50,643 bases of DNA from the NCBI GenBank assembly GCA_004347685.1, contig SLTJ01000022.1, positions 1-50,643 on the forward strand, given 5' to 3'. The translations under genes and the position numbers were made by a program. Below, in pieces: positions 13,210 through 31,498 of the stretch (its first letter is position 1; the number at the start of each line of letters is the position of its first letter). Below the pieces are notes generated by a model. That model was not told the DNA's origin. It worked only from the letters and a program-made list of their open reading frames with translations, and made no database searches. This DNA is from Clostridia bacterium. Lineage in GTDB: Bacteria; Bacillota; DSM-521; Neomoorellales; SLTJ01.

Positions 13210-14601
13210 ATGACCGAACCGATCCAAGGCGTAATTTTTGTTAATCCTGAAGTCAGGGATGACCTGTTCTATTGGCAAGCTGCCCGCCGCTACCCCTGGG
13301 ATGAGTTTACCGATATCGCGCAGCAATTCCTTCAGGCCCGTTACCAGGAACTCAAGCGTCGCTTGCCTCAGGTGGAGGGTCAGGCCGAATTATTTAAAGA
13401 CGCAGTAGACCTTGACTCCTCGTGCGGTAGCGGGGAACGCAAAAGCCCACGAGGCAGAAAAGGGATTCCCTTTTGGCCTTTGTTCAGGGCGTTTTCCCTG
13501 GCCCGCTTGATGCGGGTGGAAGATTCCGCCCGTGACGTTTACTTTCTCCTCAAGAACAACCCAACCTTCGCCCGGGCCTGCGGCTTTGAGGCTGTCCCTT
13601 CTTACCGAGTTACAGCCCGTTTTGATCACATCATGACTCACCACGGCCTTTGGGCCAAGGCCAGGATCAAAGCGGTGCAATTGAACCTGGACAAACAGGT
13701 CTTTTTCCCCCTCCGGGGAAATAGCAGTGGATACCACCCACGTAGAGGCCGAGGCAACAGCTCCTCCAAAGGATAAGAAGGACGATCCCGCCTACCAGCA
13801 CACCGATGACAATGTCGGGGTATTACGCAAGAGTAACACCGTTACCTATATCGCCCACAAGGTCGCTTTGGTAGTAGACGCTAACGAGGATTTTTGCTAT
13901 ACCCATTGCACCTTTAAGGGGAATACCTCGGACCCCGAAACCCTGGAGGGAACCCTCCTGAAGTTTAAGGAGGAATTTCCTGAGGTTGCCAAAGAGGTAG
14001 AAATTGTCCTGGCTGACGGGATCTATCAATCCGCCAACAACCAAAAGGTCAGCAAAGAAGTTTTGGAAGCTAAACTCTATGCCCCCATTAACCCCCGTAA
14101 CCGCAAAAGCGTAAAGCTAGAAAACGTCCGGGGGATTACGGAAATCGATCCTTATGGCCGGCCGAAGTGCTTAAGCGGCCGCTGCCTGGACCTTGTGGGG
14201 CGGGATCAGAAGCAGCAGCAATACATTTGGGGTTGCCCGGTATTTGGTATCAGGCATCAAGAAACTTTGGATTGCCCCGAAGCTAATCACCTCCAATGCT
14301 GTAACCTTAACGCGGGGGGTAGGTACTACCGCACCAACCGGACGGACTTTCCCCAGATTGACTGGGAAAACCCGCAGCATTCAGTTCGTTTTGGCCTCCA
14401 TTACAACAGAGAAGTTCCGTTGAACGGTTGAATGGCAACCTCAAGGAGGGTTATGGTTTCCGGCGGGTGCATAAGCAAAACGCCATCAATGTTGACGCTC
14501 ACAATGACCGCTGTATTTTGGCCAGCCATATCCTGGCCTATATGGCATGGGAGATGGGTAAACCAAAACTTAAACGGAGCTGGAGCACCCTGGCGGCCTA
14601 G
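13210..14601 (+). pseudogene. Frameshifted IS1182/IS5-like DDE transposase
   Basis: Three segments read as one protein of about 460 residues: 13210-13730 (FWPLFRAFSLARLMRVEDSA, SYRVTARFDHIM), 13727-14405 (VDTTHVEAEATAPP with the first catalytic Asp, IVLADGIYQSANNQKVSKEV with the second), and 14401-14601 (SVERLNGNLKEGYGFRRVHK with the catalytic Glu, then ILASHILAYMAWEMG). Frameshifts near 13725 and 14400 break it. The DDE spacing and the VERLNGxLKE-like end fit the DDE_Tnp_1/IS1182-type group; the subfamily is uncertain. It lies just downstream of the truncated priA. Confidence 0.7.
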
Positions 14602-14876
14602 CCAAATAAAACAACTGACTATCACAAAAACCCCCCATGTCCACCGGGCACAACCAAGCATGAAAATGTGCTAAGGTACTTGTAAACATTTGGCTTTCCT
14701 GCTACATTAGACTTATCAGGGACAAAGGCTGATTTCCTTTTGACGGTATAACCTCGGGCAAAAACCTAACCTGATTGCCTTTGAGCACAGCCAATTGTCG
14801 CCCCTTGTCCATGAGGACTTGGAACAGCACGTGTATTAAACTACGTACATTCTCGGGCAATCATCCCTGAAATCCA

Positions 14877-16146
14877 ATGGTGCGGGAAGTGAAGCGTATG
14901 CAAGACATTCTGGAAATCTGTTGCGGACTCGATGTTCACAAGGAAACCGTCGTCGCCTGCCTGCTCAAAGGCGATACAGACGGGGAACCGAAAACAACCA
15001 TTCGTATCTTTTCCACTCTTCTGGCCGGGCTTGATGAGCTAAGAGCCTGGCTGGAAGCGGAAAACTGCCGGCATGTCGCCATGGAAAGCACCGGGGTCTA
15101 CTGGCAGCCTGTTTACAGCGTGCTGGAAGAAGCCTTTGACGGCAGTATGGTTTTGACCGTTACTAACGCCCGGCACATGAAGAACGTTCCCGGCAAGAAG
15201 ACCGACATGAAAGACGCTGAATGGATAGCCACCCTTCTGCGCGCCGGATTATTGCAAGGGAGTTTCATCCCGGTTAAACCTATTCGGGAACTCCGTAATC
15301 TGACCAGGTACCGCAAAAGCATCATGGAGGAAATTACTGCCCAGAAAAACCGGATCGAAAAGCACATGCAAAGCTGCGGCTTCAAGCTCTCCACTTTCTT
15401 GACAGATATCTTCGGTGTATCGGGACGCGCCATCATGGACCATCTTTGCCGTCACGGGAAGATCTCCGCTTGGGAAGTAGATGCTTTGGTAAAGGGCCGT
15501 GCCAAGAGTAAGCTCCACGAAATCAAGCAAGCTGTCAATGGTAAAATGGATCTTCACCAAAGGGAATTCCTCAAGTTGTTATTGGTGTGGCTGGACCAGC
15601 ATTACGAGCATCTTCGCCAGGTAGAGCAAAAGCTAGAGGAAAAAATGGCGCAATACCAGAGGCAACTGGAACAACTGGACGGCATACCGGGAATTGACAA
15701 GACCGCCGCCGCCGCTATCCTGGCGGAAATCGGGATTGACATGAGCCACTTCAAAACCGCGGAACACATCTGTTCTTGGGCGGGCCTAAGTCCCGGTAAC
15801 AACGAAAGTGCAGGAAAAAAAGTCCACTCGCACCACCAATGGTAACACCTATCTAAAACGAATCTTGTGTCAAGTTGCCTGGTGTACCACCCGAGTACGC
15901 GATAGCTATCTGTCGTCCTGGTACTGGAAGGTCAAGCAGCGCCGCGGGGCCAAGAAAGCGCTTATTGCCTTGGCCAGGAAGCTACTACTCGTAATCATCT
16001 ACCACTTGCTACGAACCGGCGTCAACTATGATGAAACAACATTGGAAAAGACAAAGCAGAAGCAGGAGAGATTCCGCATCAAAAGGATTATAGCCGAGGC
16101 CCGCAAGTTGGGGCTCGATATACGGGAAGTCCCCCAGACGGCCTAA
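14877..16146 (+). pseudogene. IS110 family transposase split at a run of seven A
   Basis: The first frame (14877-15845, 322 codons) begins with the IS110 DEDD motif (ICCGLDVHKETVVACL, AMESTGVYWQPVY, KKTDMKDAEWIATLL). It then carries the Transposase_20 domain (LEQLDGIPGIDKTAAAAILA, near residues 264-283). It loses frame at GGAAAAAAAG (15813-15822); the second frame (STRTTNGNTYLKRILCQVAW and on to 16146) completes the protein to about 421 residues. One A fewer restores the fusion. The conserved Ser of the C-terminal domain is not placed with certainty. RNA polymerase or ribosome slippage on seven A could still give some full-length enzyme. IS110 elements lack terminal inverted repeats, so ends are not assigned. 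Confidence 0.8.
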
Positions 16147-17619: not shown

Positions 17620-18669
17620 ATGACTGAAAAGTTGATTTACTGGCTTGAAGAACTTGGAGTTGAGGACAATGATCTGGTAGGGAAAAAATGTGCCAATCTA
17701 GGAGAGCTTACCAAGGCCGGGGTAAGAGTTCCACCCGGATTTGCGCTTGCGGTGCAGGCGTACGAGCGTTTTCTCGCCACGACAGGGGCCCGGGAAGAAA
17801 TGCAGCGTTTCTTGGAGACGTTTAAGGCCGACCCCAATGATCCCAAAGACCTGGCGAAGTTTGAAAAGGCGAGCGAAGTTCTGAGGGAAATTGTAGATTC
17901 GAAAGAAATGCCTTCTGACATGGCGGATATCATATCCGCGCATTATGACAAACTGTGCCAGAGGACAGGAATATCAGACGTGCCGGTGGCCGTGCGTTCG
18001 GCGGGTCCAGTCAGCCGTCCTGGCCAGTACGAAACGTATCTGTGGGTGATTGGGCAAAAGGACCTGATGAAGAAAATAATTAGGGTGTGGTCCAGCACAT
18101 TTAATCACCGGTCCATGGTTTACCGGGCTCAGAACGGCTTGCCGATGGAGTTCGATCCCATAGGGTGTGCTGTGATCCAGATGGTAGACGCCAAGGTATC
18201 TGGCGTTATGTTTACCCTACATCCTGCAAACGGTGATGTCTCAAAGATCGTGATTGAGGCAAACTGGGGGCTGGGTGAAAGTGTAGTGAGCGGCAGACTA
18301 TCACCTGATTTTTATGTGGTTGATAAGCAAACTCTTAACATTGTAGAGAAGAGGGTGTCGGACAAGACTTACGAATATCTATTGGATCCGGCTACTGGAG
18401 CTACGGATTTCTTCGAAGTGCCGCAAGAAAGACGGAACATACCTTGTCTTACCGATGAAGAGTTGGTTGAGCTTGCCAAGTTGGGGCTGTTTGTCGAGAA
18501 ACATTACGGAAAGCCGCAGGATACTGAATGGACTATAAGCAAGGATCTGCCCTTTCCTCAAAATATCTTTATGGTCCAGAGCCGTCCTGTGACGGCCAAG
18601 ATGTCAAAAAAGAAAACTGCTACCGATACGATACTGGATATGATGATGAGCCGGTTATATCAATTGTAG
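17620..18669 (+). CDS. ppsB: Phenylphosphate synthase subunit B-like protein (ATP-grasp part of PEP synthase)
   Basis: A 349-residue protein matching the N-terminal ATP-binding domain (PPDK_N) of PEP synthase: GKKCANLGELTKAGVRVPPG near residues 22-41, VAVRSAGPVSRPGQYETYLW near 125-144, VIQMVDAKVSGVMFTLHPAN near 186-205, and EANWGLGESVVSGRLSPDFY near 215-235. It ends after IFMVQSRPVT, where PEP synthase continues into its swivelling His domain. In the known Thauera/Aromatoleum system the ~40 kDa PpsB and ~70 kDa PpsA divide these functions to phosphorylate phenol with ATP. The loop after VRS is shorter than in PEP synthase (no SATAEDLP). The PpsA-like gene follows after 109 bases. The gene symbol is by analogy; the substrate is inferred. 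Confidence 0.75.
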   Translation: MTEKLIYWLEELGVEDNDLVGKKCANLGELTKAGVRVPPGFALAVQAYERFLATTGAREEMQRFLETFKADPNDPKDLAKFEKASEVLREIVDSKEMPSDMADIISAHYDKLCQRTGISDVPVAVRSAGPVSRPGQYETYLWVIGQKDLMKKIIRVWSSTFNHRSMVYRAQNGLPMEFDPIGCAVIQMVDAKVSGVMFTLHPANGDVSKIVIEANWGLGESVVSGRLSPDFYVVDKQTLNIVEKRVSDKTYEYLLDPATGATDFFEVPQERRNIPCLTDEELVELAKLGLFVEKHYGKPQDTEWTISKDLPFPQNIFMVQSRPVTAKMSKKKTATDTILDMMMSRLYQL

Positions 18670-18778
18670 TTTGCAGTACAAGGACTTCTCCTTCACGTGC
18701 TGTGGGGATGCTGGTTGAGTTTTCAGGTCGTTCTTGCTCGGAGTTTATTGTCAATGTAGAAGACCGGGGGGGAACCAA

Positions 18779-20458
18779 ATGCCGTACGGATATTATCATT
18801 ATGATTGGCGCGGCGAGCCGGATTTGGACCCGCAGTATTATGATTGTTGGGTATGTAATGTTGCCCACTCTGTGCCCGCGTGGACGCCGCTCTTTACTTC
18901 TGAGTGGTACCGGCTTATTCCGTATGCAATGCAGTATGCCAATGATTATATTTGTGAGCCGACAAGTAAAGGTTGGGACTGGAGGATATACAACGGCTAT
19001 GCATACATTACTTCAATAAAGGTTCCTGAAAGCGAAGTTGAAGGTCGGAAGCAGGTTTACAGGGAGCAACTGGCATCCATCATTGACGACCCGTGGGGTT
19101 ACAGTGAGCGGCTCTTTTCCAGATTAATGGAAAAGTATGATTATTATAAGCCTCTTAACGTCAAGGAGATGCGAGATTGTGAACTGGTACAACATCTCTG
19201 GGATATGGCCGAGCTGGACCGGCTGATGTGGGAAGTGCACATGCTTGGATGGGATGGACTGCTGGGCGGCTTGCGGCTTTGGCGGGAGATGCTAGTGGAT
19301 CTTTTTGGGATTACTCCCTATGATGTCAGGTATGCGAAACTCTTGTCAGGTTTTGATAATGCTTTGTTTAAACTCAATAGCGATCTAACGCACGTTGCGG
19401 CTAGAGCTGTCGAGCTTAACGTTGAATCTAATTTCAGCCTTCCTGACGAAGAAGTAATTCCGGCAATGGAGCAAACGGAGGCCGGCCGAGAGTGGCTTGG
19501 CGAGTTTGATAAGTTCCTTAACGAACACGGCTACCGGTCGGACCGGATGCTAGAGTTTACCCGTCCCACCTGGCTTGAAAAACCAACGCTGGCTATTCCT
19601 GACATCAGGCGTATCATCTCTGCAGGTGTTTCTCACGCGCCTGATATTCTCAGACACCAACTGCGGAAAGAAGGTGAAGAAATAGAAAGAGAATTGTTGG
19701 CTAAGCTCCCCTCCGACCAGAGGGAGTGGTTTCATAAGCTGACCCAGTGCGCCCAGGCTGCGCACTCCTGGAGCGAAAGCCACGACTACTGGTGCGAATT
19801 CCAGACTTACGGATTGCGGCGCCGGGCCATTAAAGAACTGAGCGAGCGGTTATACCGGAAGGACATCATAGACGACCCAGAAGATACCGCGTACCTCCTT
19901 CACCAGGACCTCATTTATGCTGCTGTAATTCAGGAAAAAGTTGGAAAGAAGTATTTCCGCGATCTCATAAAGAGAAACAAGGAGGAGTTTGAGTATTATA
20001 AGAGCATTCCCCCAGGTGGCGACACGACGCCTCTATTCCTAGGTGATCCTTCAAAGCTGCCGCTTGTAGCCGGGAGAGATACGCTGTTTGGGGTAGTCGC
20101 TGCTCCTCCGGCGGAGGATGCTGCAAAGGTTGGTGCCGTTGCCGTAGGCTGCGCCGGGGCTCCTGGCATTGTCGAAGGGACTGCTCGTGTCATTGCCTCC
20201 GCTTCGGAATGGGACCAGATTAAGCCGGGTGATATATTGGTATGTCCTATGACTGATGCTACGTGGACACCTCTCTTTGCACTTCTTAAAGGAGTGGTAA
20301 CAGATTCGGGCGGGCTTCTTGCGCACCCAGCTATAGTATGCCGGGAGTACGGTATTCCTGCGGTGTGTGGCACCTTCGATGCTAGCAAGAAGATTAAGAC
20401 AGGAGATAGGATTAGAGTAGACGGTAACTTGTTAAGGGTCTATAAACTGGACCAATAG
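18779..20458 (+). CDS. ppsA: Phenylphosphate synthase subunit A-like protein (phospho-histidine part of PEP synthase)
   Basis: 559 residues from the ATG that follows GGGGGG; an earlier in-frame start lacks a good site. The C-terminal ~100 residues are the PEP-utilizing mobile domain, with VTDSGGLLAHPAIVCREYGI, whose His (about residue 516) would carry the phosphoryl group. The preceding ~430 residues include DPQYYDCWVCNVAHSVPAWT at the N-terminus and a long helical region. The PEP/pyruvate-binding barrel of PEP synthase is absent, as in Thauera PpsA, so the acceptor should not be pyruvate. Together with the preceding ATP-grasp subunit it is expected to transfer the beta phosphate of ATP to a phenolic substrate. 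No CBS-domain PpsC subunit is adjacent. Confidence 0.75.
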   Translation: MPYGYYHYDWRGEPDLDPQYYDCWVCNVAHSVPAWTPLFTSEWYRLIPYAMQYANDYICEPTSKGWDWRIYNGYAYITSIKVPESEVEGRKQVYREQLASIIDDPWGYSERLFSRLMEKYDYYKPLNVKEMRDCELVQHLWDMAELDRLMWEVHMLGWDGLLGGLRLWREMLVDLFGITPYDVRYAKLLSGFDNALFKLNSDLTHVAARAVELNVESNFSLPDEEVIPAMEQTEAGREWLGEFDKFLNEHGYRSDRMLEFTRPTWLEKPTLAIPDIRRIISAGVSHAPDILRHQLRKEGEEIERELLAKLPSDQREWFHKLTQCAQAAHSWSESHDYWCEFQTYGLRRRAIKELSERLYRKDIIDDPEDTAYLLHQDLIYAAVIQEKVGKKYFRDLIKRNKEEFEYYKSIPPGGDTTPLFLGDPSKLPLVAGRDTLFGVVAAPPAEDAAKVGAVAVGCAGAPGIVEGTARVIASASEWDQIKPGDILVCPMTDATWTPLFALLKGVVTDSGGLLAHPAIVCREYGIPAVCGTFDASKKIKTGDRIRVDGNLLRVYKLDQ

Positions 20459-20534
20459 GCAAGAACCTTAGGCGGTGTCTTTGTCCACAGTGGAAACCGC
20501 GACAGACCAGAAAACAATGGGAGGGATGGTGTTG

Positions 20535-21962
20535 ATGAAACCAATAAGAAATCTTAGGGACTACATCGAGGTGTGCGAGGCTGAGGGAGAGGTAAAGAGG
20601 GTAAAGGCAGAGGTAGACTGGGACTTGGAGCTTTCACATATTGCTAAGATTAACGAAGAGCAGGGAGGGCCGGCGCTTCTCTTTGAGAATGTAAAGGGTT
20701 GCCTGGGCTCTGTTCTGATTGGGGTTTTTAGTTCGCCAAAGCGCATGGCCATCGCCCTCGGCATGCCACCAGAGTATACCATGTGCCAGATGGCTGATGA
20801 GTGGCGAAGAATTGGCAGCAGAAAGCCCATTCCTTCTGTAGAGGTAAATACCGGGCCTATTATGGAAAACATTGTCGAGGAAAAGGACATTGACCTGACT
20901 AAGTTTCCGGCCCCCAAATATTTTCCCCTCGATGGCGGGAGATTTATGGGAACGAGTGCGTTCCGCATTACCCGTGATCCAGAGACCGGTGAACTGGAAA
21001 TTGGTATGGGCAGGATGCAGTTGTATGATGAGAAAAATGTCGGGCTCTATCTCTCACCGGGAAGAGGGGGGGATAAAATTCGGGCCAAGTATGAAAAACT
21101 TGGCAAACCCGCGCCCTTCGCGTTGGTATTTGGTTGCGATCCTGCCCTTGCGCTGGCATCGGTAATGTTCATAAAGGGGGCAAGCAAATACGATATTGCA
21201 GGGACTCTTCGCGGCATCCCGGTAGAGACTGTCGTAAGCGATTTTACCGGTCTGCCAATACCAGCGGAAGCTGAACTCGTGGTGGAGGGATTTATGGACC
21301 ATGACGATCTCAGACCCGAGGGCCCTTTTGGCGACGTCACGGGGCTGTATACATCTGAGTTGCAAAAACCTATTCCAAAACGGTTTGTTAAAGCCAAGCG
21401 CGTTCTCTATCGAAACGATCCTATTATGCTGGCTAACTCCTCCGGTAGACCTGTTTCCGACGTGCAGATGATGATTTCACTGCCCAGGACTGCTGCTCTC
21501 TGGCAAGAGCTTGAAGCCATGAAGATCCCGGGGATAAAATCGGTTTACATTCCTCCGCAGATGGCGGGGCGATTCTGGGCGATTGTCTCTGTCAAAACCC
21601 AGTACCCGGGCCATGCTAATCAGGTAGCACATGCTGTGATTTCAACCACAACCGGGCACCTTGGTATTAAAGGAGTAATAGTCGTTGACGATGATATTGC
21701 TGCCGATGATATGGACAGGGTTTTGTGGGCCCTTGCTACCAGATATCTCCCTGATCGAGATACAGAGATCATAAAACGGGGGCGTTCAAGCCCATTAGAC
21801 CCTGCAGTGCCGCCTGAGACGGGTTACGTGGAAATCATCTCGAAAATCCTTATTGATGCTACAGTCCCATATGAGTGGCCGCAGAAACCGGTAGTGGCAG
21901 CGCTGGATGAGGAAGTTGTCAAGAAAGTGAAAAGTAGGTGGAAGGAATATGGCCTTGATTAG
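20535..21962 (+). CDS. UbiD-family decarboxylase/carboxylase (PpcA/PpcB-like), copy 1
   Basis: 475 residues from the ATG nine bases after GGGAGGG; upstream in-frame starts lack this spacing. It opens RNLRDYIEVCEAEGEVKRVK, typical of UbiD. The prFMN/metal region includes FRITRDPETGELEIGMGRMQ near residue 140 and a FGCDPALALASV segment. The catalytic acidic loop reads RPEGPFGDVTGLYT near residues 258-271, with Asp as the second acid. UbiD enzymes use prenylated FMN to add or remove CO2 on aromatic or unsaturated acids. Directly after the Pps-like pair it is the best candidate for a phenylphosphate carboxylase core subunit. The reaction direction and exact substrate are inferred from context. 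Confidence 0.85.
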   Translation: MKPIRNLRDYIEVCEAEGEVKRVKAEVDWDLELSHIAKINEEQGGPALLFENVKGCLGSVLIGVFSSPKRMAIALGMPPEYTMCQMADEWRRIGSRKPIPSVEVNTGPIMENIVEEKDIDLTKFPAPKYFPLDGGRFMGTSAFRITRDPETGELEIGMGRMQLYDEKNVGLYLSPGRGGDKIRAKYEKLGKPAPFALVFGCDPALALASVMFIKGASKYDIAGTLRGIPVETVVSDFTGLPIPAEAELVVEGFMDHDDLRPEGPFGDVTGLYTSELQKPIPKRFVKAKRVLYRNDPIMLANSSGRPVSDVQMMISLPRTAALWQELEAMKIPGIKSVYIPPQMAGRFWAIVSVKTQYPGHANQVAHAVISTTTGHLGIKGVIVVDDDIAADDMDRVLWALATRYLPDRDTEIIKRGRSSPLDPAVPPETGYVEIISKILIDATVPYEWPQKPVVAALDEEVVKKVKSRWKEYGLD

Positions 21963-22108: not shown

Positions 22109-22666
22109 GTGGGTTTGAAGAAAGACAGGGAGACTGCCGTTGAGAAGGCAACGAAGGTAAAACTGTTTGCACACGATGTGCATGGCGTGCTGACATCCAG
22201 TGCTTTTTTCTGTGACATTGAGGGAAGAAGGCAGTACAGCTTCTGGCACATGGATGGTTTTGGCGACCTCTCACTTTCAGCGAACGGTATCCGGATTGCT
22301 TTTCTAGATACCACCTCGGTGGACGGTGAAGGCCTATACCGGGCCAAGGAGCTCAAGCTTGATCAGTATTACTACAAAGTGAGCGATAAGGTTGCTAAAA
22401 TACGGGAGTTAGAGCAGGAGCTGGGAATTAGTGATGAAAATGTAGGATACATAGGGAGTGAAATCACCGATGCGGCGGCTATGAGGATTTGCGGCTTCAG
22501 GGTGGCTACGGCCGATGCGGTCGACGAGATTAAGGAACTGGCTGATTACGTGACAACGGCTCCCGGCGGCAGGGGGGCCATCAGAGAGGTTTGCGAATTC
22601 ATTTTGGGGTCCATGGGCCTGTGGGAAGCCTGGACAGAAAAGGTAATGAGAATGGGCTATAAATGA
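22109..22666 (+). CDS. KdsC-like HAD protein (PpcD-like), copy 1
   Basis: A 185-residue protein of the KdsC/HAD subfamily C0 type. The nucleophile motif is LFAHDVHGVLTS (Asp23), where His25 replaces the usual Asp at +2. Motif IV reads VGYIGSEITDAAAM instead of GDDxxD, so the first metal-binding Asp is also changed. The end is typical (YVTTAPGGRGAIREVCEFIL). A small HAD protein is the delta subunit (PpcD) of phenylphosphate carboxylase in Thauera, where it is needed for phenylphosphate turnover. The GTG start follows AAGGGGGGGG. A paralogue lies 48 bases downstream. The altered residues make this copy a doubtful phosphatase and a possible structural or specialised subunit. Confidence 0.75.
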   Translation: MGLKKDRETAVEKATKVKLFAHDVHGVLTSSAFFCDIEGRRQYSFWHMDGFGDLSLSANGIRIAFLDTTSVDGEGLYRAKELKLDQYYYKVSDKVAKIRELEQELGISDENVGYIGSEITDAAAMRICGFRVATADAVDEIKELADYVTTAPGGRGAIREVCEFILGSMGLWEAWTEKVMRMGYK

Positions 22667-22714
22667 TTTCAAGCCTGGCTAATTTTGCACTACCGAGGTC
22701 AGAGGGGGGTAAGT

Positions 22715-23266
22715 ATGGGCAACGGAAAGAGCAGGGAGGCAGCCGTCGAGAAGGCCAAGAGAACCAAGTTCGTTATCCTTGACATTCATGGCGTGTTGAC
22801 CGACAACACTTTGTATTATACCGATGACGGGAAGAAATCCGAGAGGTTCTCCCTTCGAGATCGGTTAGGGTGCCTCGCTTTGATGGAGGGCGGTATAAGC
22901 GTAGCATTTCTTACAAGCAAGATTTCCAGGGCGGATGAACAGGTGGGTAAGATCTACAACATTCCTACGGAATATCTGTGGGGAAGCTCAGCGAAAATGG
23001 CGAGGCTTGACGAGTTTGAGAAGGATTCTGGACTAAAAGACGAGGATTTTTGTTACGTGGGAGACGAGATGATTGACCTAGGCATAATGAAAAGGGTTGG
23101 ATTCTCTGTAGCGCCGGCTGACGCTGCGAGCGAGGTAAAAGAGATAGCTGATTATATAAGCAGCGCTGGTGGTGGCCAGGGTGTGGTAAGGGAGCTCGCC
23201 GAGTTTATTCTAACTGCTCAAGGAAAGTGGGAGGCAATAAAGGAGAAGATTTCCGCGTCAGGCTAA
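22715..23266 (+). CDS. KdsC-like HAD protein (PpcD-like), copy 2
   Basis: 183 residues from the ATG after GAGGGGGG. It is a tandem paralogue of the preceding gene: the N-terminus (KSREAAVEKAKRTKFV) and motif I (ILDIHGVLTDN, Asp23 and His25) align without gaps. Motif IV is YVGDEMIDLGIM, closer to the canonical GDDxxD than in copy 1. The conserved end is YISSAGGGQGVVRELAEFIL. Its position between two UbiD genes supports a role as a PpcD-like subunit that handles the phosphate ester during carboxylation. The same Asp-to-His change at +2 in both copies suggests it is functional rather than decay. Confidence 0.78.
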   Translation: MGNGKSREAAVEKAKRTKFVILDIHGVLTDNTLYYTDDGKKSERFSLRDRLGCLALMEGGISVAFLTSKISRADEQVGKIYNIPTEYLWGSSAKMARLDEFEKDSGLKDEDFCYVGDEMIDLGIMKRVGFSVAPADAASEVKEIADYISSAGGGQGVVRELAEFILTAQGKWEAIKEKISASG

Positions 23267-23322: not shown

Positions 23323-24756
23323 ATGGCATTCCGTGACAATCGGGAATTCTTCGAAGCGCTTTTGAGAACAGGAGATGGCATCAGAGTCGCTCGCGAGGTC
23401 GACTGGGATCTGGAGATGGGAGCTATCGTCCGGCGGGTCTGTGAGATGGGTGGCCCTGCTCCCCTCTTTGAGAGTATCCGCGACTATCCCGGCTGGAGGG
23501 CGTTGGGAGCTCCTCTTGCCACCTTCCGCCGGCTGGCTGTGGCTCTTGGCCTTCCTGCTCATGCCAGCGTGCGTGAGATTTCGGAGGTGTACATAGAGAA
23601 AACCAGGGCACCAGGTCCTGAGCCCAAACTGGTTTCAACTGGCCCATGCAAGGAAAACGTAGTGGTCGGCGATGAAGTAGACCTTTTTATGCTGCCTGCT
23701 CCGATGGTGCATGAAGGTGATGGAGGGCGCTACCTTTCTACGTGGCATATGGTTGTCAGTAAGGACCCCGATACTGCTGAAGTGAACTGGGGAATGTACA
23801 GGCAAATGGTGATAGACGAGCACACCATGGTTGGCCCTTTACTCCCAGTATCAGATACGGGGCGGGTCTTTCACAATAAATATAAGCCGAAAAATAAACC
23901 TATGCCCTTTGCAACGGTAATTGGTGCCGACCCTACAAGCAGTATTGCGGCTGCGGCAGGAGTTCCCTGGCAAGAACCGGTCTTTGCATCGGCGCTGAGC
24001 GGCGAACCTGTTGAACTTGTAAAGTGTGAAACGGTGGACCTCGAGGTTCCGGCTACCGCTGAAGTAGTTCTGGAGGGCGAAATTCTCCCAGGAAAGGAAC
24101 TGCCTGAGGGACCTTTCGGTGAATATCCGGGTTACCGCACGTCGCTGCGGGAGCCGCGAACTGTCTACCGCGTAAATGCCATAACTTACAGGAACAACCC
24201 CATTCTACCCGGAGCTAACATGGGCGTTCCAGTAGATGAAGGTCAGTTGCTCAGGGCATTTACTTTAGGTTTAGAGGCACGGCGAATCCTCGCCAGCCAG
24301 GGACTACCGGTCTCTGAAGTTTTCATGCCTCCTTGCTCGGCTCACCATTTGATGATAGTTAGCGTAAAGAGCGCCGTAACTAACATTGCGGTGCAGGTTG
24401 CCCACGCCTTATTTGGAAGCAAGCTTGCTCCATGGTTTTATTATGTTGTGGTGGTGGATGCGGATGTTGACATCTACAACTTGGAGGAGGTCATCCACGC
24501 GATCTGTACCGGTTGCCATCCGGGCCGGGGGATAAGAATATACGAAGACGATATAGGCAGTTTTGCCACACCGTTTTTAAGCCTTGAGGAGAGGAGGCAG
24601 GGACGGGGAGCGAAAGCAGTATTTGACTGCACTTTTCCGCCTGACTGGGATCCAAAGACCGAACTTCCCATAAAAGTGTCTTTCGAGACCAACTATCCAA
24701 AGGAAGTCAAGGAAAGGGTTATTGCTAACTGGAAGGACTATGGTTTCCCCCAGTAG
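23323..24756 (+). CDS. UbiD-family decarboxylase/carboxylase (PpcA/PpcB-like), copy 2
   Basis: 477 residues from ATG (FRDNREFFEALLRTGDGIRV); an upstream in-frame start overlaps the preceding gene and has no site. Family segments include STGPCKENVVVGDEVDLFML near residue 105, WGMYRQMVIDEHTMVGPLLP near residue 155 and FATVIGADPTSSIAAAAG near residue 193. The acidic catalytic loop is LPEGPFGEYPGYRT near residues 260-273 with both acids Glu. It belongs to the same directional group as copy 1 and the HAD pair; two dissimilar UbiD subunits (alpha and beta) form phenylphosphate carboxylase in Thauera, and this pair could play those parts. The small gene after it matches PpcC in position and size. 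Confidence 0.85.
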   Translation: MAFRDNREFFEALLRTGDGIRVAREVDWDLEMGAIVRRVCEMGGPAPLFESIRDYPGWRALGAPLATFRRLAVALGLPAHASVREISEVYIEKTRAPGPEPKLVSTGPCKENVVVGDEVDLFMLPAPMVHEGDGGRYLSTWHMVVSKDPDTAEVNWGMYRQMVIDEHTMVGPLLPVSDTGRVFHNKYKPKNKPMPFATVIGADPTSSIAAAAGVPWQEPVFASALSGEPVELVKCETVDLEVPATAEVVLEGEILPGKELPEGPFGEYPGYRTSLREPRTVYRVNAITYRNNPILPGANMGVPVDEGQLLRAFTLGLEARRILASQGLPVSEVFMPPCSAHHLMIVSVKSAVTNIAVQVAHALFGSKLAPWFYYVVVVDADVDIYNLEEVIHAICTGCHPGRGIRIYEDDIGSFATPFLSLEERRQGRGAKAVFDCTFPPDWDPKTELPIKVSFETNYPKEVKERVIANWKDYGFPQ

Positions 24757-24786: not shown

Positions 24787-25035
24787 ATGGAGTTCGAGAT
24801 ATACGTCAGCAGACTAGAGGAGCTACCGGTGGAGCAGGAGTGTGAGCTGTTGATCCGAGCCTTAACGCCCAGTGATCGAAGGAAAAAGTATAAGTACCAG
24901 AAGGTACGTGCTCTCATTTCCCAACAAAAAGATCGCTATCCTGACTTACTTTGGGTCAGATTTTTAAAGGGTCAACTACACACTGATCCTTACTCGATCA
25001 GGATTGCAAATACTAAAGGGGCCACGGATGAGTAA
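24787..25035 (+). CDS. Small PpcC-like protein (putative gamma subunit)
   Basis: 82 residues from the ATG with site GAAGGGAG. The sequence has EFEIYVSRLEELPVEQECEL at the N-terminus and a basic middle (SDRRKKYKYQKVRALISQQK). No catalytic motif or membrane segment is seen. It follows the second UbiD gene after 30 bases. Phenylphosphate carboxylase has a ~10 kDa gamma subunit (PpcC), and this protein matches in size and place, but I cannot confirm sequence similarity. The call as PpcC-like is by context. Confidence 0.5.
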   Translation: MEFEIYVSRLEELPVEQECELLIRALTPSDRRKKYKYQKVRALISQQKDRYPDLLWVRFLKGQLHTDPYSIRIANTKGATDE

Positions 25036-25127
25036 TGAAATGAACGGACTATCTTGTTACAGGCCTTAAGTTTAGAGAGGGTAATTAACGCCTATCTGCG
25101 AGCACGTGGACATGCGTGATTATGTGT

Positions 25128-25410
25128 GGAAATAGTTCGGGGTGAGACCGTGGGGGTGGGGTTCCCGCCCCCACGGAGGTGATATTAGCGAAGGGAGAAT
25201 CCTGCCTGGTATCAAGGAGAGCAACGGATCCTTCGGTGAAGCCAGCGGCTACTACATTACGATTGATGAAGGCCGTGTAATTGAGGTAACTGCGATTACC
25301 CATCGCCATAACCCCGTTTAATATTATTAACCCTGGACCGCCGAACTTGATCTCTTAACGGTTCTGGGCCAGGGCAGCACCACATTAATTACCGATCTTG
25401 GTTTCAGCTA
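25128..25410 (+). pseudogene. UbiD gene remnant
   Basis: Three short frames align with the C-terminal half of the UbiD gene at 28177-29538: EIVRGETV (25128), EVILAKG (near 25177) and then EGRILPGIKESNGSFGEASG continuing to RVIEVTAITHRHNP, stop codons, and PWTAELDLLTVLGQGST. Two in-frame stops and two frame changes show decay. The catalytic loop has also changed (NGSFGE where the intact copy has DGPFGE). It marks a fourth UbiD copy once present between the PpcC-like gene and the ligase. Confidence 0.8.
25148..25176. repeat. 13-bp GC-rich hairpin inside the UbiD remnant
   Basis: CCGTGGGGGTGGG and CCCGCCCCCACGG pair over 13 positions (one G-T) around a three-base loop. No T-run follows. It sits where the remnant changes frame and could act as a weak terminator or mRNA-stability hairpin after the PpcC-like gene. 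Confidence 0.55.
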
Positions 25411-25469
25411 ACGAGATAACCTAATAACATTATAGCATATGGCATTAAAGAAAGGGGCAAACGGGGTCG

Positions 25470-26861
25470 ATGTTTTGTGATTTTGCCAGTCCAAAAGCTG
25501 TAACTATGACCAGGGAAGAGCTAAGGGAGTATCATCTTTATCATCTACAGCGCCTCCTGGAGCGAGTTTATGCTAACAGCGCTTTTTATCGCAAACTTTG
25601 GGCCAATGCGGGTTTGCACCCGGAACATATCAAAACGCTAGATGATTTTACCAGGTTAGTTCCCATGGTAACTAAACAGGATTTTCTAGCAGACCAGAAC
25701 TCCTCTCCACCTTACGGGCAGCGTCTTGCCGTCTCGGAAGAGGAGATTTGTCAGGTGCATTTGACCAGTGGAACCAGCGGTATTGGCCAGGAAGTGTATG
25801 CCCTTACCAGGGATGACATTAGTCTGGAAGCACAGGGATGGGTTATCCATTTGCGGAGTATTGGGTTGAAACCTGGTGATGTTTCTATAGTTACATGGCC
25901 AGTAGCGACTATGGCTGCGGCGCTGAATGTCTACGAGGCATGCAGGGAGATAGGAGTTAATGCCTTCTTAGTGGGGATCTATGATGGCGAGACGAAGATT
26001 AAACTCATGCAACGATTTGACATGAACCACCTGGTGGCTACACCCACGTATGTTTCCAGGCTGGCTGTACTGTGCCAGGAAATGGGACTCAACCCTTCCC
26101 AAGCGTTTGGCAATCTAAAAGCCATCAGCGTAGCTGCGGAATCGTACCCGGCAAATTGGCTGGAGGAAATGGAGGCAGTTTGGGGCTGCCCTATACATGA
26201 TGTCTACGGATCGACCCAAAACGCGACTGCGTTAGGCATGACGTGTCAGACGCGACGTTCCGCGGGAGAAGGGGGCGGTACACGGCGGAACATGCATCTT
26301 TTTGAACACCTAACCTTCGTCGAAGCAATTGATTACGAATCGGGAGAGCCAGTCAGCTACGGTGCTGAAGGAGAATTGGTTCTCACTCCGTTGTTTCGGC
26401 AGGCCACACCAGTTATCCGCTTCCGTACAGGTGATAAGGTTATACTCTATCCAGGGCAAACATGTTCGTGCGGCAGTCAATTCGACTTCCTGGAGGCAGG
26501 CACTATTGCGCGTTTTGATGATATGATAAAAATCAAGGCGGCAAATGTGTGGCCTCAGACAGTAGATGACATTATCTTCTCCTATAAGGAAGTAGAAGAA
26601 TATAACGGTGTCGTATCCATAGATGAAAAGGGCAGGGAAAATGTGCGTGTCCTGTTGGAGTTTCGGGATGGAGTACCGGAGGGAACAAAGGCCAGTTTGA
26701 TGAAACAAGTAGGTGAGCGTATCCGGCAAAAGACGCAGGTGACCATGATAGTAGAAGAAGTTCCCCGAGGAACCCTGGAACGTACTCTTTTTAAGAGCAG
26801 GAGATGGGTTGACAGGAGGCAGGAAGGTTTGCGACAGGTGGTAAGATACCTGGAAAAATAG
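25470..26861 (+). CDS. Phenylacetate-CoA ligase family (AMP-forming) aryl-CoA ligase
   Basis: A 463-residue protein of the PaaK-type adenylate-forming family. It shows the phosphate-binding loop VHLTSGTSGIGQEVYALT near residues 97-114, the adenine-region motif VYGSTQNATALG near residue 247, and FRTGDKVILYPGQTCSCGSQ near residues 314-333, the usual RTGD and Cys-containing segment. It would activate an aromatic acid with ATP and CoA to the acyl-CoA, AMP and PPi. In this cluster the natural substrate would be the carboxylation product, for example 4-hydroxybenzoate, but this is inferred. The start has AAAGGGG about 14 bases upstream. Confidence 0.82.
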   Translation: MFCDFASPKAVTMTREELREYHLYHLQRLLERVYANSAFYRKLWANAGLHPEHIKTLDDFTRLVPMVTKQDFLADQNSSPPYGQRLAVSEEEICQVHLTSGTSGIGQEVYALTRDDISLEAQGWVIHLRSIGLKPGDVSIVTWPVATMAAALNVYEACREIGVNAFLVGIYDGETKIKLMQRFDMNHLVATPTYVSRLAVLCQEMGLNPSQAFGNLKAISVAAESYPANWLEEMEAVWGCPIHDVYGSTQNATALGMTCQTRRSAGEGGGTRRNMHLFEHLTFVEAIDYESGEPVSYGAEGELVLTPLFRQATPVIRFRTGDKVILYPGQTCSCGSQFDFLEAGTIARFDDMIKIKAANVWPQTVDDIIFSYKEVEEYNGVVSIDEKGRENVRVLLEFRDGVPEGTKASLMKQVGERIRQKTQVTMIVEEVPRGTLERTLFKSRRWVDRRQEGLRQVVRYLEK

Positions 26862-27010: not shown

Positions 27011-27175
27011 GTCACCAAATGGGGGCTGAAGGATCTCGTGGGGGGTAAGTGGCCTTGCACATCCGGGTAGCTAACAGCTAGGTGTGTCCTGGCTGCATCT
27101 CTGCGAGATTATTTGTTCGCTGGCACAAGCCAGAAAGTACCGCGGGTTTGCTTGCAGTGCAAGGAGATAGGGTGA
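27011..27175 (+). pseudogene. Ghost of an AOR 3' end joined to a ferredoxin gene
   Basis: The DNA from 27011 resembles the junction of the intact AOR and ferredoxin genes at about 31437-31650. VTKWGLKDLVGGKW aligns with the AOR tail VSRLRLEEFLGGGW. It is followed by TATCCGGGTAGCTAGCAG-like bases, a Cys region (VCPGC, where the intact copy has VCSGC) and then CGCGGGTTTGCTTGCAGTGC, which is identical in the intact ferredoxin gene. Stops and a large deletion have destroyed it. The UbiX start site (AAGGAG) is built directly onto its end. Confidence 0.75.
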
Positions 27176-27177
27176 CA

Positions 27178-27783
27178 ATGACTGCACGTTTAATAGTTGG
27201 TATGTCGGGAGCTACGGGTTCCATTTATGGTATCCGCCTGCTGGAGGTGCTCCGCGACCTTGGTGTTGAAACCCACCTGGTGATGAGCCGGTCGGCGGAG
27301 AAGAATATAAGCCTGGAGACAAAATGGCGGGTGGAGGACGTCAGGGCTCTGGCTACGGTTGTCTATCCTTTTGAGGACATCGCGGCGGCCATTTCCAGCG
27401 GTTCTTTCTTGACTTGCGGCATGGTGGTTGCTCCGTGCTCTATCCGAACCCTGTCAGGCATAGCCAATTCTTACAACGAGAACCTGCTGGTACGGGCGGC
27501 TGATGTGACTTTGAAGGAACGGCGCCGCCTAGTACTTCTGGTCCGAGAAACCCCGCTGCATACCGGGCACCTGCGCCTGATGACTGAGGTGACGGAAATA
27601 GGCGGCATAATTCTGCCTCCCATGCCGGCTTTCTACCACCACCCACAGACCATAGACGACATCATCAACCAGACGGTAGGCAAAGCTCTGGACATGTTTG
27701 GCATCGAGCACCACCTTTTCTGCCGCTGGAGCGGTGGGGAGGCAGCAGCCGGAGTTGTCCAGGGGCCGGCTGGTGAAAGGTAG
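27178..27783 (+). CDS. ubiX: UbiX-type flavin prenyltransferase
   Basis: 201 residues from the ATG after AAGGAGATAGGGTGACA; an in-frame upstream start lies in the ghost ferredoxin and is rejected. It has the UbiX signature IVGMSGATGSIYGIRLLEVL near residues 6-25, MVVAPCSIRTLSGIANSYNE (81-101 region, with the Ser/Cys of the flavin pocket) and RRLVLLVRETPLHTGHLRLM (near residues 120-139). It joins a dimethylallyl group to FMN to give the prenylated flavin that UbiD enzymes need. Its presence among three UbiD genes makes the cluster self-sufficient for cofactor. The C-terminal ~20 residues after HHLFCRW are an extension of low complexity. Confidence 0.92.
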   Translation: MTARLIVGMSGATGSIYGIRLLEVLRDLGVETHLVMSRSAEKNISLETKWRVEDVRALATVVYPFEDIAAAISSGSFLTCGMVVAPCSIRTLSGIANSYNENLLVRAADVTLKERRRLVLLVRETPLHTGHLRLMTEVTEIGGIILPPMPAFYHHPQTIDDIINQTVGKALDMFGIEHHLFCRWSGGEAAAGVVQGPAGER

Positions 27784-27946: not shown

Positions 27947-28144
27947 ATGCCTATTTACGAGTATAAATGTAGCCAAGGACACCGGTTTGAAGCTGTGAGA
28001 CCGCACGCCGGTTCGCAAAAGCATAGTTGCCCACAGTGCGGGGCAGAGGCGCAGAGGTTACCGTCACTCTTTAGTTATCCGAGAGGCCGGGGCATTTACC
28101 TGTTCGACAGAAGAACAGGGCGCGATCTTCTTCACGATGATTGA
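27947..28144 (+). CDS. FmdB family zinc-ribbon protein
   Basis: A 65-residue protein starting MPIYEYKCSQGHRFEAV. The metal site is formed by C and H of YKCSQGH and the CPQCG pair, the normal FmdB/CxxC zinc-ribbon arrangement. Such small proteins are often found beside molybdenum/tungsten or amide-handling enzymes and are thought to be regulatory or structural. The stop overlaps the region upstream of the next UbiD start, suggesting translational coupling. An ATG 24 bases further upstream has no equally good site. Confidence 0.8.
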   Translation: MPIYEYKCSQGHRFEAVRPHAGSQKHSCPQCGAEAQRLPSLFSYPRGRGIYLFDRRTGRDLLHDD

Positions 28145-28176
28145 CGCGCCCTCTGAGAAGAAAGAAGGGAACTTAT

Positions 28177-29538
28177 GTGGACATGCGCGCGTATCTCGAT
28201 CTCCTCCAGGACGCCGGGGAGATCATGGTCATAGAGGACGAACTGGACCCCGTGTACGAAGCGTCCGCGGTATTGGGCACCAGGGAAGTGCAGATGGGCC
28301 CGGCAGTACTTTTTCGGAATCTAAAGGGATATCCGGGCTGGGAAGTGCTGGGCAATCTATTCGGCAGCAGGAGGAGGGTAGCCCTCTACCTGGGAGTACA
28401 TGAGGATGAAGCAGAAGCGGCATTTGTCAGGAGACAGCAAGAGTTAAAGCCGCCGGTGCGCGTGAAGGACGGTCCGTGTAAGGAAGTGAGGGTAAGGGAG
28501 CCCATTGACCTGTTGCGGGAGTTGCCGATCCTGACCTTCAGCGAGGGCGATGTGGCTCCGTACATTACCGCAGGGATCATGGTTTCTCACGACCCGCACA
28601 CCGAGGAGAGAGGGGTGAGCGTTCACCGGCTGAGAGTAGCCGGGCCTAACCGTCTGGGCACCATGTTGATGAACCCGCCGCTAAATCTTTTTATGCAAAA
28701 GGCGGAGAAGGCAGGTACACCACTGGAGGTAGCAATTTGCATTGGTCCGGAACCGGCCGTGCTCCTGGCTACCCTTACCAGGTGGACGCCCGGGATTGAC
28801 AAGTACGAAATTGCCGGCGGCATTGCCGGCAGTTCCCTAGAGGTAGTGCGCTGCGAGACGGTCAATATTGAGGTTCCTGCTGCCAGCGAGGTGGTGATTG
28901 AAGGCCGCATCTTGCCGAATGTTAGGGAGCCGGACGGGCCCTTTGGCGAACACAGCGGCTGTTATGTTGTATCTAACGAGGGTCGTATTGTGGAGGTAAC
29001 TGCCATAACACGCCGCCAGCACCCCATCTATCAGGTGATCAAGCCGTGGACGACCGAGCTCGATCTCTTGATGGCCCTTGGTCAGGGGAACAGCACCCTG
29101 CGCCGTCTGAAGGAGGTTGTGCCGGAGGTCGAGGCCATCCACGTAGTTCCCCTTAGTTCCATGCTGGCTGCGGTGATAAAGCTGTCTTCTACCAGCAGGG
29201 CCAGAGTGCGAAAGGCTATCCTTACCTGCCTGGCCATTGACCCGCGGATAAAGCAAGTGGTGGCTGTAGACGATGACATAGATATTACCAACCCGTATGA
29301 GGTGGCCTGGGCAATGGTCACAAGGTTTCAGGCTGACAGGGATGTGGTAATCCTAAGGGACACTGAGGGTACTCCGCTGGATCCTTCTCGTAAAGCAGGG
29401 AATCTAACCTCCAAGATAGGTTTTGACGCCACTTCGGCAGACATGGAAGGAAACTTTAAGAAAATCTCTCCTCCTGCGACTGCCGTAATCAGGGCGCAGG
29501 AGGTCGTTGGCCAATACTTGAGGCGTTATAGCTCGTAA
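28177..29538 (+). CDS. UbiD-family decarboxylase/carboxylase, copy 3
   Basis: About 453 residues from GTG (an ATG two codons later is the alternative; AAGGGA lies 6 and 12 bases upstream of them). UbiD segments: RAYLDLLQDAGEIMVIEDEL at the start, KDGPCKEVRVREPIDLLREL near residue 97, ICIGPEPAVLLATLTRWTPG near residue 188, and the acidic loop EPDGPFGEHSGCYV near residue 250, with Asp as first acid. The metal-site region (SVHRLRVAGPNRLGTML) differs from copies 1 and 2, so this is a distinct subfamily. It probably acts on a different aromatic acid or in the opposite direction. It lies between the zinc-ribbon gene and the AOR module. Confidence 0.85.
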   Translation: MDMRAYLDLLQDAGEIMVIEDELDPVYEASAVLGTREVQMGPAVLFRNLKGYPGWEVLGNLFGSRRRVALYLGVHEDEAEAAFVRRQQELKPPVRVKDGPCKEVRVREPIDLLRELPILTFSEGDVAPYITAGIMVSHDPHTEERGVSVHRLRVAGPNRLGTMLMNPPLNLFMQKAEKAGTPLEVAICIGPEPAVLLATLTRWTPGIDKYEIAGGIAGSSLEVVRCETVNIEVPAASEVVIEGRILPNVREPDGPFGEHSGCYVVSNEGRIVEVTAITRRQHPIYQVIKPWTTELDLLMALGQGNSTLRRLKEVVPEVEAIHVVPLSSMLAAVIKLSSTSRARVRKAILTCLAIDPRIKQVVAVDDDIDITNPYEVAWAMVTRFQADRDVVILRDTEGTPLDPSRKAGNLTSKIGFDATSADMEGNFKKISPPATAVIRAQEVVGQYLRRYSS

Positions 29539-29605: not shown

Positions 29606-31498
29606 ATGCCTTTGTCGAGGCAATTGCTGTTCGTAGACTTAAGCAGCGGCAACAGCCAAAGCGTCCCCATTCCGCTGGAGGTACGGCAAGGCTTTCTCGG
29701 CGGCCGTGGTTTGAATATGCTGCTTCTCTACAGGCTGGGTCTGCGCTGTCACGATCCCTTTTCTTCTGACAACCCGCTTATTTTCGGCGCCGGCTTGCTT
29801 ACCGGTGTGCTGGGCGGGCGATTAAACATATCGGCCAGGTCGCCGGAATCCGGATTGTTGGGAGATTCCAATGTTGGCGGAGATTTTGGGGCCGAGTTGG
29901 CGGCCACAGGCTATAGCCATCTGGTGATAGTCGGAAGGAGTGACAGGCCAGTATATCTTATCGTTACCGAGGACGGTGTTGAGATACGCGACGCCGGGTA
30001 TTTATGGGGACGTGACACCCTGGAAACCCAAAGAATGATCCGGCGAGAGCTGACCGACCCGGAAGTAAGGGTAGCGTGCATCGGGCCGGCAGGGGAGAAC
30101 CTGGTACGGTTTGCCGGAGTTGTCACCGGGCAAAAGAATATTGCCGGCCGCACGGGCATGGGGGCGGTTATGGGCAGCAAGAACTTGAAAGCCGTGGCGG
30201 TCAAGGGTAGCAGGGGTTTTAGGATTAGCGACCCGGACGGGTACCTAGAGGCCGTCAAGGACGTGGTGGGCCAGGTGAGTTCTACCCGTTGGGGTCAAGC
30301 TCTAGGCAAGATGGGCACACCCCTTCTCCTCCACTATTCCAACGCCATGGGGTTTCTTAGTGTACGCTATCACCAGAGGACCACCCTGGGAGAGCAAGGG
30401 CGCCTCCTGGAACCTTCTGCCCTGGAGGAATTCAGTACCGGGATGCTTGCCTGCTATGGTTGCCCGGTTCATTGCCGTCACCGGTACGCGATAGATGCCG
30501 GTAGCCGGTATGCGGGTGCTGCAGGCGAAGGTCCTGAATACGCATCAGTGGCTTCCCTGGGGAGTCACGTTGGCAATTTAAACATCGAGGCTGTAATCTA
30601 TATGGCCCAGTTATGTAACCGTTACGGTCTAGATACGATTTCTACAGGAAACTATCTTGCCTGGGCTATGGATCTTTACGAGCGGGGAATTCTGACCAGC
30701 GCCGATACTAGCGTCCCTCTGGAGTGGGGCAACGAGGATAGCCTTATACAAATGCTGCATATGATCGCCAATCGCAGGGGATTTGGTAACGTGTTGGCCG
30801 AAGGCTCCCGGGCGGCTGCCGAGCTCGGACCTGAGGCGGCGAAACATCTCCTTCAGATTAAAGGGTTATCCATGGAGCTGACTGATGAGCGGCCGGTGAA
30901 ATCCTTTGCCCTTGGGCTGGCGACAGCCACCCGGGGGTGTTGCCACATGCGCAGCCGGCCTTCGGTTGACGTTACCAACCTGCCCCGGAACATTTTGGCC
31001 GGTCTCTATGGCGGGGACGTAGGCCGTGATTACACCGAGTATGAAGGAAAGGGGCGAATGGTGTGGTGGCACGAGCTTTTCCACGCTGTTACAGATGCCA
31101 TAGGCTATTGCCGCTTCCTTTCCATATTTAGCAGTATACATGCTGTCGGTTACCAAGAGTACGCTAAACTGATTCACAGAGCTACCGGCCTGGAACTGGA
31201 CGCGGGAGAGCTTCAGGAGATTGGAGAGCGTATCTACACTACTGAGAGAATGTTTCTTACTCAACAGGGCATTTCTCGTAAGGACGATACGCTGCCAGAT
31301 TTGTACTTTGATGTGCCCGTACCGGCTGGCCCGTCCCGGGGAAAACTCATCTCTCGAACACGATTTCAGGAGATGCTGGATGAGTATTACGGGCTCCACG
31401 GCTGGAACGAAGACGGAATTCCTCGCCCTGAAACTGTATCTAGGCTGAGGCTTGAGGAATTTCTTGGGGGTGGGTGGCTTGCGTATCCGGGTAGCTAG
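29606..31498 (+). CDS. Aldehyde:ferredoxin oxidoreductase family tungsten/molybdenum enzyme
   Basis: A 630-residue protein of the AOR family. The N-terminal domain shows FLGGRGLNMLLLYRLGL near residues 29-45 and ISARSPESGLLGDSNVGGDF near 75-94. The pterin-binding region is near 170-200 (GRTGMGAVMGSKNLKAVAVK). Cysteines for the [4Fe-4S] cluster lie at CYGCPVHC near residue 285, and the fourth near DAIGYCRF (about residue 496). The usual reaction is oxidation of an aldehyde to the acid with ferredoxin as acceptor, or the reverse. A ferredoxin and a MoaD-like gene follow with overlaps. It could act on an aromatic aldehyde. It could also be related to BamB, the AOR-type subunit of class II benzoyl-CoA reductase, which I cannot separate by eye. 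Its RBS AAAGGAGG is ideal. Confidence 0.85.
   Translation: MPLSRQLLFVDLSSGNSQSVPIPLEVRQGFLGGRGLNMLLLYRLGLRCHDPFSSDNPLIFGAGLLTGVLGGRLNISARSPESGLLGDSNVGGDFGAELAATGYSHLVIVGRSDRPVYLIVTEDGVEIRDAGYLWGRDTLETQRMIRRELTDPEVRVACIGPAGENLVRFAGVVTGQKNIAGRTGMGAVMGSKNLKAVAVKGSRGFRISDPDGYLEAVKDVVGQVSSTRWGQALGKMGTPLLLHYSNAMGFLSVRYHQRTTLGEQGRLLEPSALEEFSTGMLACYGCPVHCRHRYAIDAGSRYAGAAGEGPEYASVASLGSHVGNLNIEAVIYMAQLCNRYGLDTISTGNYLAWAMDLYERGILTSADTSVPLEWGNEDSLIQMLHMIANRRGFGNVLAEGSRAAAELGPEAAKHLLQIKGLSMELTDERPVKSFALGLATATRGCCHMRSRPSVDVTNLPRNILAGLYGGDVGRDYTEYEGKGRMVWWHELFHAVTDAIGYCRFLSIFSSIHAVGYQEYAKLIHRATGLELDAGELQEIGERIYTTERMFLTQQGISRKDDTLPDLYFDVPVPAGPSRGKLISRTRFQEMLDEYYGLHGWNEDGIPRPETVSRLRLEEFLGGGWLAYPGS

Follow-up and report, generated by a model that had tools for sequence, protein, structure and literature searches.

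A derived clade of HAD proteins with an altered acid/base residue and a divided active site in phenylphosphate carboxylase operons of anaerobes

Two altered HAD proteins between ppcB and ppcA

The Asp two residues after the nucleophile in the DxD motif is the general acid/base of HAD phosphatases, and its replacement in two adjacent HAD proteins raises the question of how both came to share the change and what such proteins might still do. The two genes lie on the forward strand of a 50,643-nucleotide stretch of contig SLTJ01000022.1 from a Clostridia bacterium, referred to here as the window, at positions 22109-22666 (copy 1, 185 aa, GTG start) and 22715-23266 (copy 2, 183 aa, ATG start). For copy 2 the ATG at 22715 is the best start, the listed TTG at 22685 adding nothing except an N-terminal extension. 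The initial annotation had described motif I of both proteins as D-V/I-H-G with His at residue 25, and reading the sequence of 22109-23266 confirms motif and numbering: copy 1 carries AHDVHGVLT (D23-V-H25, 22175-22183) and copy 2 ILDIHGVLT (D23-I-H25, 22781-22789), each with the nucleophile Asp23 and with His25 encoded by CAT (22181-22183 and 22787-22789, respectively). The contrast it had drawn in motif IV, SE in copy 1 and GDE in copy 2, is equally present. In copy 1 (GSEITD, Ser117-Glu118 at 22457-22462) the metal-binding Asp has become Ser, copy 2 (GDEMID, Asp117-Glu118 at 23063-23068) keeps it, and in both the following Asp118 is replaced by Glu. Lys94 of motif III is present in both proteins. 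Motif II of copy 1 is altered (LDTTSVD), and Arg77 and Gly50 are found in copy 1 and are absent from copy 2, in which the nucleophile of motif I and motifs II, III and IV are intact. The complete motif set of KdsC or C0-type HAD proteins (DxD, T/S, K, GDDxxD) is thus found in neither, the +2 Asp being gone from both and the metal Asp from copy 1.

Against TIGR02726, the PpcD equivalog model, copy 1 scores 107.7 bits and copy 2 135.0 bits, both below the cut-off of 281.95, and both also fall short of the cut-off of 208 for the KdsC equivalog NF007019 (102.6 and 118.1 bits). Only the broader KdsC-phosphatase subfamily model TIGR01670 accepts copy 2 (110.7 bits, cut-off 106.95). Since DxH proteins escape the curated PpcD model, annotation of such an operon would name ppcA and ppcB but no delta subunit. 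AF2 models of copy 1 (pLDDT 87.4) and copy 2 (pLDDT 93.2) nevertheless adopt the KdsC fold, and in Foldseek comparisons with the PDB both predicted folds match KdsC with TM values of 0.83-0.89 in the best matches. A search of the host genome found no third close homologue of the pair.

The pair is flanked by ppcB and ppcA in a pps-ppc operon, all genes of which are on the forward strand. PpcB, the phenylphosphate carboxylase beta subunit (20475-21962; TIGR02724 563.2 bits, cut-off 468.95), and PpcA, the alpha subunit (23323-24756; TIGR02723 570.4 bits, barely over the cut-off of 564.6), both belong to the UbiD family. Upstream lie a phenylphosphate synthase beta-like subunit (17620-18669; PPDK_N, ATP-binding, Pfam PF01326), which shares 41% identity with the Azoarcus ppsB product and 50-55% with relatives, and an alpha-like subunit with a PEP-utiliser mobile domain (18734-20458; PF00391), 27% identical to the Azoarcus ppsA product. 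Downstream of ppcA, an unlisted ORF encodes a PpcG-like gamma subunit of 82 aa (24787-25035), which matches the PpcG of relatives in tblastn with E-values down to 1.5e-19 and reaches 61 bits with TIGR02725, below the cut-off of 135.6. It is followed by a PaaK-like aryl-CoA ligase (25470-26861; PF00501 and PF14535), a UbiX-family flavin prenyltransferase (27082-27783; NF004685 266 bits, cut-off 188) and a third UbiD-family protein (28141-29538; TIGR00148 331 bits, over the cut-off), which is the counterpart of UbiD3 of the Azoarcus operon and 43% identical to it. Azoarcus sp. KH32C has an annotated ppc operon with this gene order, in which a single ppcD fills the slot of the two HAD genes.

Several further features of the region were recorded. 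PpcG-like ORFs come after PpcA in nearly all relatives whose contig is long enough. In the gap that separates the PpcG-like ORF from the CoA ligase (25100-25470), reading frames contain a broken UbiD-like stretch, e.g. SFGEASGYYITIDEGRVIEVTAITHRHNP..., with stops inside, apparently the remnant of an additional UbiD gene. Directly upstream of the operon (13210-16146) are broken transposase-like ORFs, apparently of two insertion sequences as judged by eye, and the third UbiD gene is followed (29606-32148) by genes for aldehyde:ferredoxin oxidoreductase-family, ferredoxin-like and ThiS/MoaD-like proteins.

Distribution and descent of the DxH proteins

The spread of the motif among relatives was surveyed twice. 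A first contig scan yielded a set biased to DxH proteins together with many Cof-type HADs; it included nine contigs (L003-L011, mostly from Desulfobacterota-type MAGs), each carrying both genes with order and motifs unchanged. Genome searches then enlarged the set. Because the set was biased toward DxH and the genome searches had been seeded mostly with DxH proteins, a second survey was anchored independently on Azoarcus PpcA (threshold E<=1e-150) and covered 793 genomes, 395 of Desulfobacterota type and 398 of the window's own phylum. A strong PpcA match was obtained in 31 of them (25 and 6, respectively), and PpcA adjoins a DxH HAD in all 31 loci and a DxD HAD in none. The link to the phenylphosphate carboxylase operon proposed in the initial annotation is therefore well founded, both by the slot between PpcB and PpcA and by this association. 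Contig and genome searches together gave 57 distinct DxH proteins: 22 related to copy 1 (HAD1), 22 related to copy 2 (HAD2) and 13 encoded as single copies. The single-copy proteins occur in ppc operons of both the window's own phylum and Desulfobacterota (e.g. G001, G002, G250 and G447). In two genomes (L009 / L111, L214; G067, G072) HAD1 and HAD2 are about 1.5-1.8 kb apart (about 1.8 kb in L009), with other sequence in between, and in both genomes HAD1 is still beside PpcB and HAD2 still beside PpcA. One genome, G000, gave 34 first-look PpcA candidates, compared with mostly 0-13 in the other genomes listed, hinting that it holds many UbiD-family paralogues.

In a tree of 110 relatives, comprising the 57 DxH proteins and 53 DxD proteins, the DxH proteins form one clade with support of 100/100, which persists when the motif residues are masked (SH-aLRT 100). 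HAD1 and HAD2 each form one clade, and their common node lies within a grade of single-copy DxH proteins. As there is one DxH clade, with single-copy DxH proteins outside the pair, the His common to both copies reflects inheritance and not convergence; in these trees, D-to-H most simply happened once, predating the duplication. The initial annotation had taken the same change in two paralogues as a sign of parallel selection, a view that finds no support, the duplication being younger than the change. A separate parallel origin in the two copies is ruled out by the tree, including the motif-masked one. The free tree places PpcD away from the DxH clade with weak deep support, and holding Azoarcus PpcD together with the DxH clade improves the log-likelihood by 16.7 over a short free search (p-AU 0.82), which allows common descent of the DxH clade with PpcD to the exclusion of KdsC as a possible history. 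Support is only moderate for the duplication node (85/83) and for where Azoarcus PpcD branches, deep in the tree, with respect to the DxH clade.

With one canonical PpcD sequence compared, that of Azoarcus KH32C, DxH is a derived trait and not a general PpcD trait. Azoarcus PpcD reads DVDG and GDD and scores 366.8 bits with TIGR02726, above the 281.95-bit cut-off, so that the possibility raised in the initial annotation, that every known PpcD carries DxH, does not hold. Changing its +2 Asp to His in silico costs 2.7 bits, equal to the loss of the nucleophile, which suggests that TIGR02726 members are DxD, one such sequence having been read. The window pair shares with PpcD (TIGR02726; Thauera, Azoarcus, Aromatoleum) the slot at ppcB-ppcA and the KdsC-type HAD character, and copy 2 is about 42% identical to Azoarcus PpcD; unlike the single-copy PpcD with its DVDG...GDD, the pair is duplicated, reads DV/IHG...G-x-E and has a divided active site. 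The single-copy DxH HADs (G001, G002, G250, G447) share with the pair the DVHG and GDE motifs, the operon slot and the clade. They differ from it in being unduplicated, in a shortened motif II (T-RKSK) and in having the metal Asp and Arg77 together in one protein.

Among known phenol-degrading anaerobes, two candidate comparators were set aside on the basis of extracts from PMC6114531: Desulfatiglans anilini, whose cluster is described there without ppc-alpha and ppc-delta, with distant candidates elsewhere in the genome, and Geobacter metallireducens, whose cluster is described with a ppc-beta homologue only. A comparison of syntroph pps-ppc operons, in the portion of PMC5946492 consulted, names PpsAB, PpcB and UbiD-like and UbiX-like proteins and speculates on an alternative decarboxylase. 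The consulted portions of the phenol-operon literature on Desulfatiglans and Syntrophorhabdus contain no description of these HADs, an absence that is not proof of novelty.

Complementary losses in the two copies

The change in motif I does not stand by itself. DxH occurs together with G-x-E in 57/57 members of the DxH clade and in 0/53 DxD relatives, which excludes an origin of DxH by chance; the position following the motif IV metal site holds Glu in all 57 and Asp in all 53 DxD proteins. On this alignment, the +2 His and Glu118 of motif IV are fixed as a pair. Median omega is about 0.05 for HAD1 and for HAD2, i.e. both copies are under strong purifying selection, and the earlier view that the change was selected and is not noise is borne out by the co-occurrence and by omega alike.

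Beyond this pair of residues, the two copies diverge. In HAD1 the metal-site Asp is gone from all 22 proteins (17 Cys, 3 Ser and 2 Tyr) and motif II is rebuilt, with Arg78 and His47 retained. Arg77 is present in all 53 DxD proteins, all 13 single-copy DxH proteins and all 22 HAD1 proteins, and is Val or Met in 22/22 HAD2 proteins (past an alignment gap, residue numbers in the real proteins are one higher than in the column table, giving Arg77 by column and Arg78 by protein). HAD2 has further replaced the Gly of the DG loop, by Arg in 90%, and His47 by Leu in all members. Asp23, Thr67, Lys94, Asp117 and Asp121 are invariant across HAD2 and the single-copy DxH proteins. The alignment thus shows that the duplicates went on to lose complementary portions of the predicted active site, selection retaining both genes. 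Because different conserved residues were lost in all 22 pairs, a division of labour between the copies, one of the options considered in the initial annotation, is the reading that fits best.

The DxH clade is therefore genuine, old and conserved, and it is confined to the phenylphosphate carboxylase operons of anaerobes. Its members make up a derived branch of delta subunits in which the acid/base residue has changed and, within one sub-clade, the active site has been duplicated and divided; what they do is approached below from sequence comparison.

A possible composite active site and its rivals

KdsC-type enzymes are tetramers whose active site is completed by a neighbouring subunit, and Arg77 is presumably the residue that reaches into the active site of the neighbour. 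The window proteins resemble KdsC / YrbI (3-deoxy-D-manno-octulosonate 8-phosphate phosphatase) in fold, nucleophile Asp and motif III Lys. They differ in having His for the acid/base Asp, GDE/GSE in place of GDD in motif IV and, in HAD2, no universal Arg77, and they belong to an aromatic carboxylation operon, whereas KdsC serves LPS sugar synthesis. The complementary losses fit a tetramer with shared active sites, and we therefore tentatively favour, at somewhat below an even chance, a reading in which the pair serve phenylphosphate carboxylase as delta-type (PpcD-like) subunits and share, as a hetero-oligomer, one functional Asp-nucleophile site, that of HAD2, with changed acid/base chemistry. 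HAD1 and HAD2 would assemble as a KdsC-type hetero-oligomer with the chemistry confined to HAD2, whose Asp23 would accept the phosphoryl group of phenylphosphate with Mg2+ held on Asp117, and the catalytically crippled HAD1 would lend its cap and the substrate-side residues Arg78 and His47 to the adjoining site. A strong general acid would be dispensable, since phenolate leaves readily. His25, probably paired with Glu118, may allow phenolate to depart without a proton to the prFMN site of PpcA/PpcB and may serve as base when the aspartyl phosphate is slowly hydrolysed; such a His-Glu pair would favour phenolate over phenol and could still activate water. We infer both activity and assembly of HAD1 and HAD2.

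What is described for the canonical subunit provides the background to this proposal. According to extracts from PMC6114531, phenylphosphate hydrolysis by the isolated Thauera delta subunit is very slow, and the alpha-beta-gamma core depends on this subunit for phenylphosphate carboxylation, which its addition restores; PpcD is likewise described, in the part of PMC7500099 consulted, as turning phenylphosphate into a phenolate intermediate.

Two other explanations deserve weight, each of them unlikely. The pair could be ordinary phosphatases in which His25 replaces Asp as the acid/base and each copy works independently, providing dosage or two specificities. The intact nucleophile and motif III Lys, the whole metal site kept in HAD2 and the single-copy proteins, and the 13 cases in which a GDE-bearing single-copy DxH protein serves alone are what such enzymes would look like; the loss of the metal Asp from every HAD1 and of Arg77 from every HAD2, however, indicates that the copies are not interchangeable active enzymes. 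Alternatively, and we regard this too as doubtful, they could be pseudo-phosphatases, i.e. structural or regulatory carboxylase subunits that bind phenylphosphate or phosphate without turnover. The general acid/base Asp is gone from both copies and the metal Asp from one, and animal CMP-sialic acid synthetase offers a precedent in its C-terminal domain (3ewi), which has the KdsC fold, is matched by sequence and fold and serves as a non-enzymatic assembly module, although unlike the window HADs it is fused within an unrelated enzyme. The five residues invariant in HAD2 and the single-copy DxH proteins would be unexpected if catalysis had been abandoned, and the dependence of phenylphosphate carboxylation on canonical PpcD (extracts of PMC6114531) also speaks against a subunit without turnover.

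We consider it very unlikely that the pair holds or relays the phosphoryl group, the D-to-H change slowing hydrolysis of the aspartyl phosphate so that the group is kept or passed on and not lost as Pi, with the energy of the phosphate bond possibly saved. A changed +2 residue is known to slow aspartyl phosphate hydrolysis in P-type ATPases, the nucleophile is retained while the water-activating residue is changed, and every sampled operon of Desulfobacterota and of the window's own phylum has DxH, the lone DxD read being that of Azoarcus (Betaproteobacteria); His can nonetheless serve as a base, and hydrolysis need not be slow. Neutral decay, with the motifs of redundant proteins simply drifting, has the several altered HAD1 motifs in its favour and is ruled out by omega and by conservation, His25 and Glu118 being 100% conserved in 57 proteins and 22 pairs being retained across two phyla.

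A broader version of the composite-site reading we hold to be quite doubtful: it would define a D-x-H/G-D-E HAD subfamily as an obligate hetero-oligomer with a composite site, in which His slows or redirects aspartyl phosphate breakdown, phenolate reaches the prFMN carboxylase unprotonated, and the phosphoryl group is possibly retained or conserved. If true, such a site would follow an acid/base logic unlike that of textbook HAD phosphatases, tied to energy-limited anaerobes. Canonical DxD, single-copy DxH and the HAD1/HAD2 pair form an evolutionary series in which a HAD active site has, in effect, been mutated step by step by nature; it makes the role of the delta subunit in phenylphosphate carboxylase directly testable and is relevant to methanogenic and sulfate-reducing phenol breakdown.

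Within the window's operon, identities and gene trees are discordant. Identity to the Desulfobacterota counterparts reaches 75% for the HAD pair and is only 48-60% for PpcA and PpcB; set against the trend among the other tandem operons, this is a departure of 17 to 29 points for HAD2 and 5 to 19 points for HAD1. The other 14 tandem operons group together in the PpcB tree (100/99), leaving the window outside, whereas for HAD2 the window falls inside the tandem clade; the discordance is less clear for PpcA than for PpcB. Either a two-gene HAD cassette moved into a resident operon, or PpcA and PpcB of the window evolved unusually fast. The nearest same-family relatives of the window (G001 and G002) have a single-copy DxH protein, the end branches of the window PpcA and PpcB are 1.19-1.43 long, and window-specific changes occur at positions invariant in the others, 21 in PpcB and 15 in PpcA.
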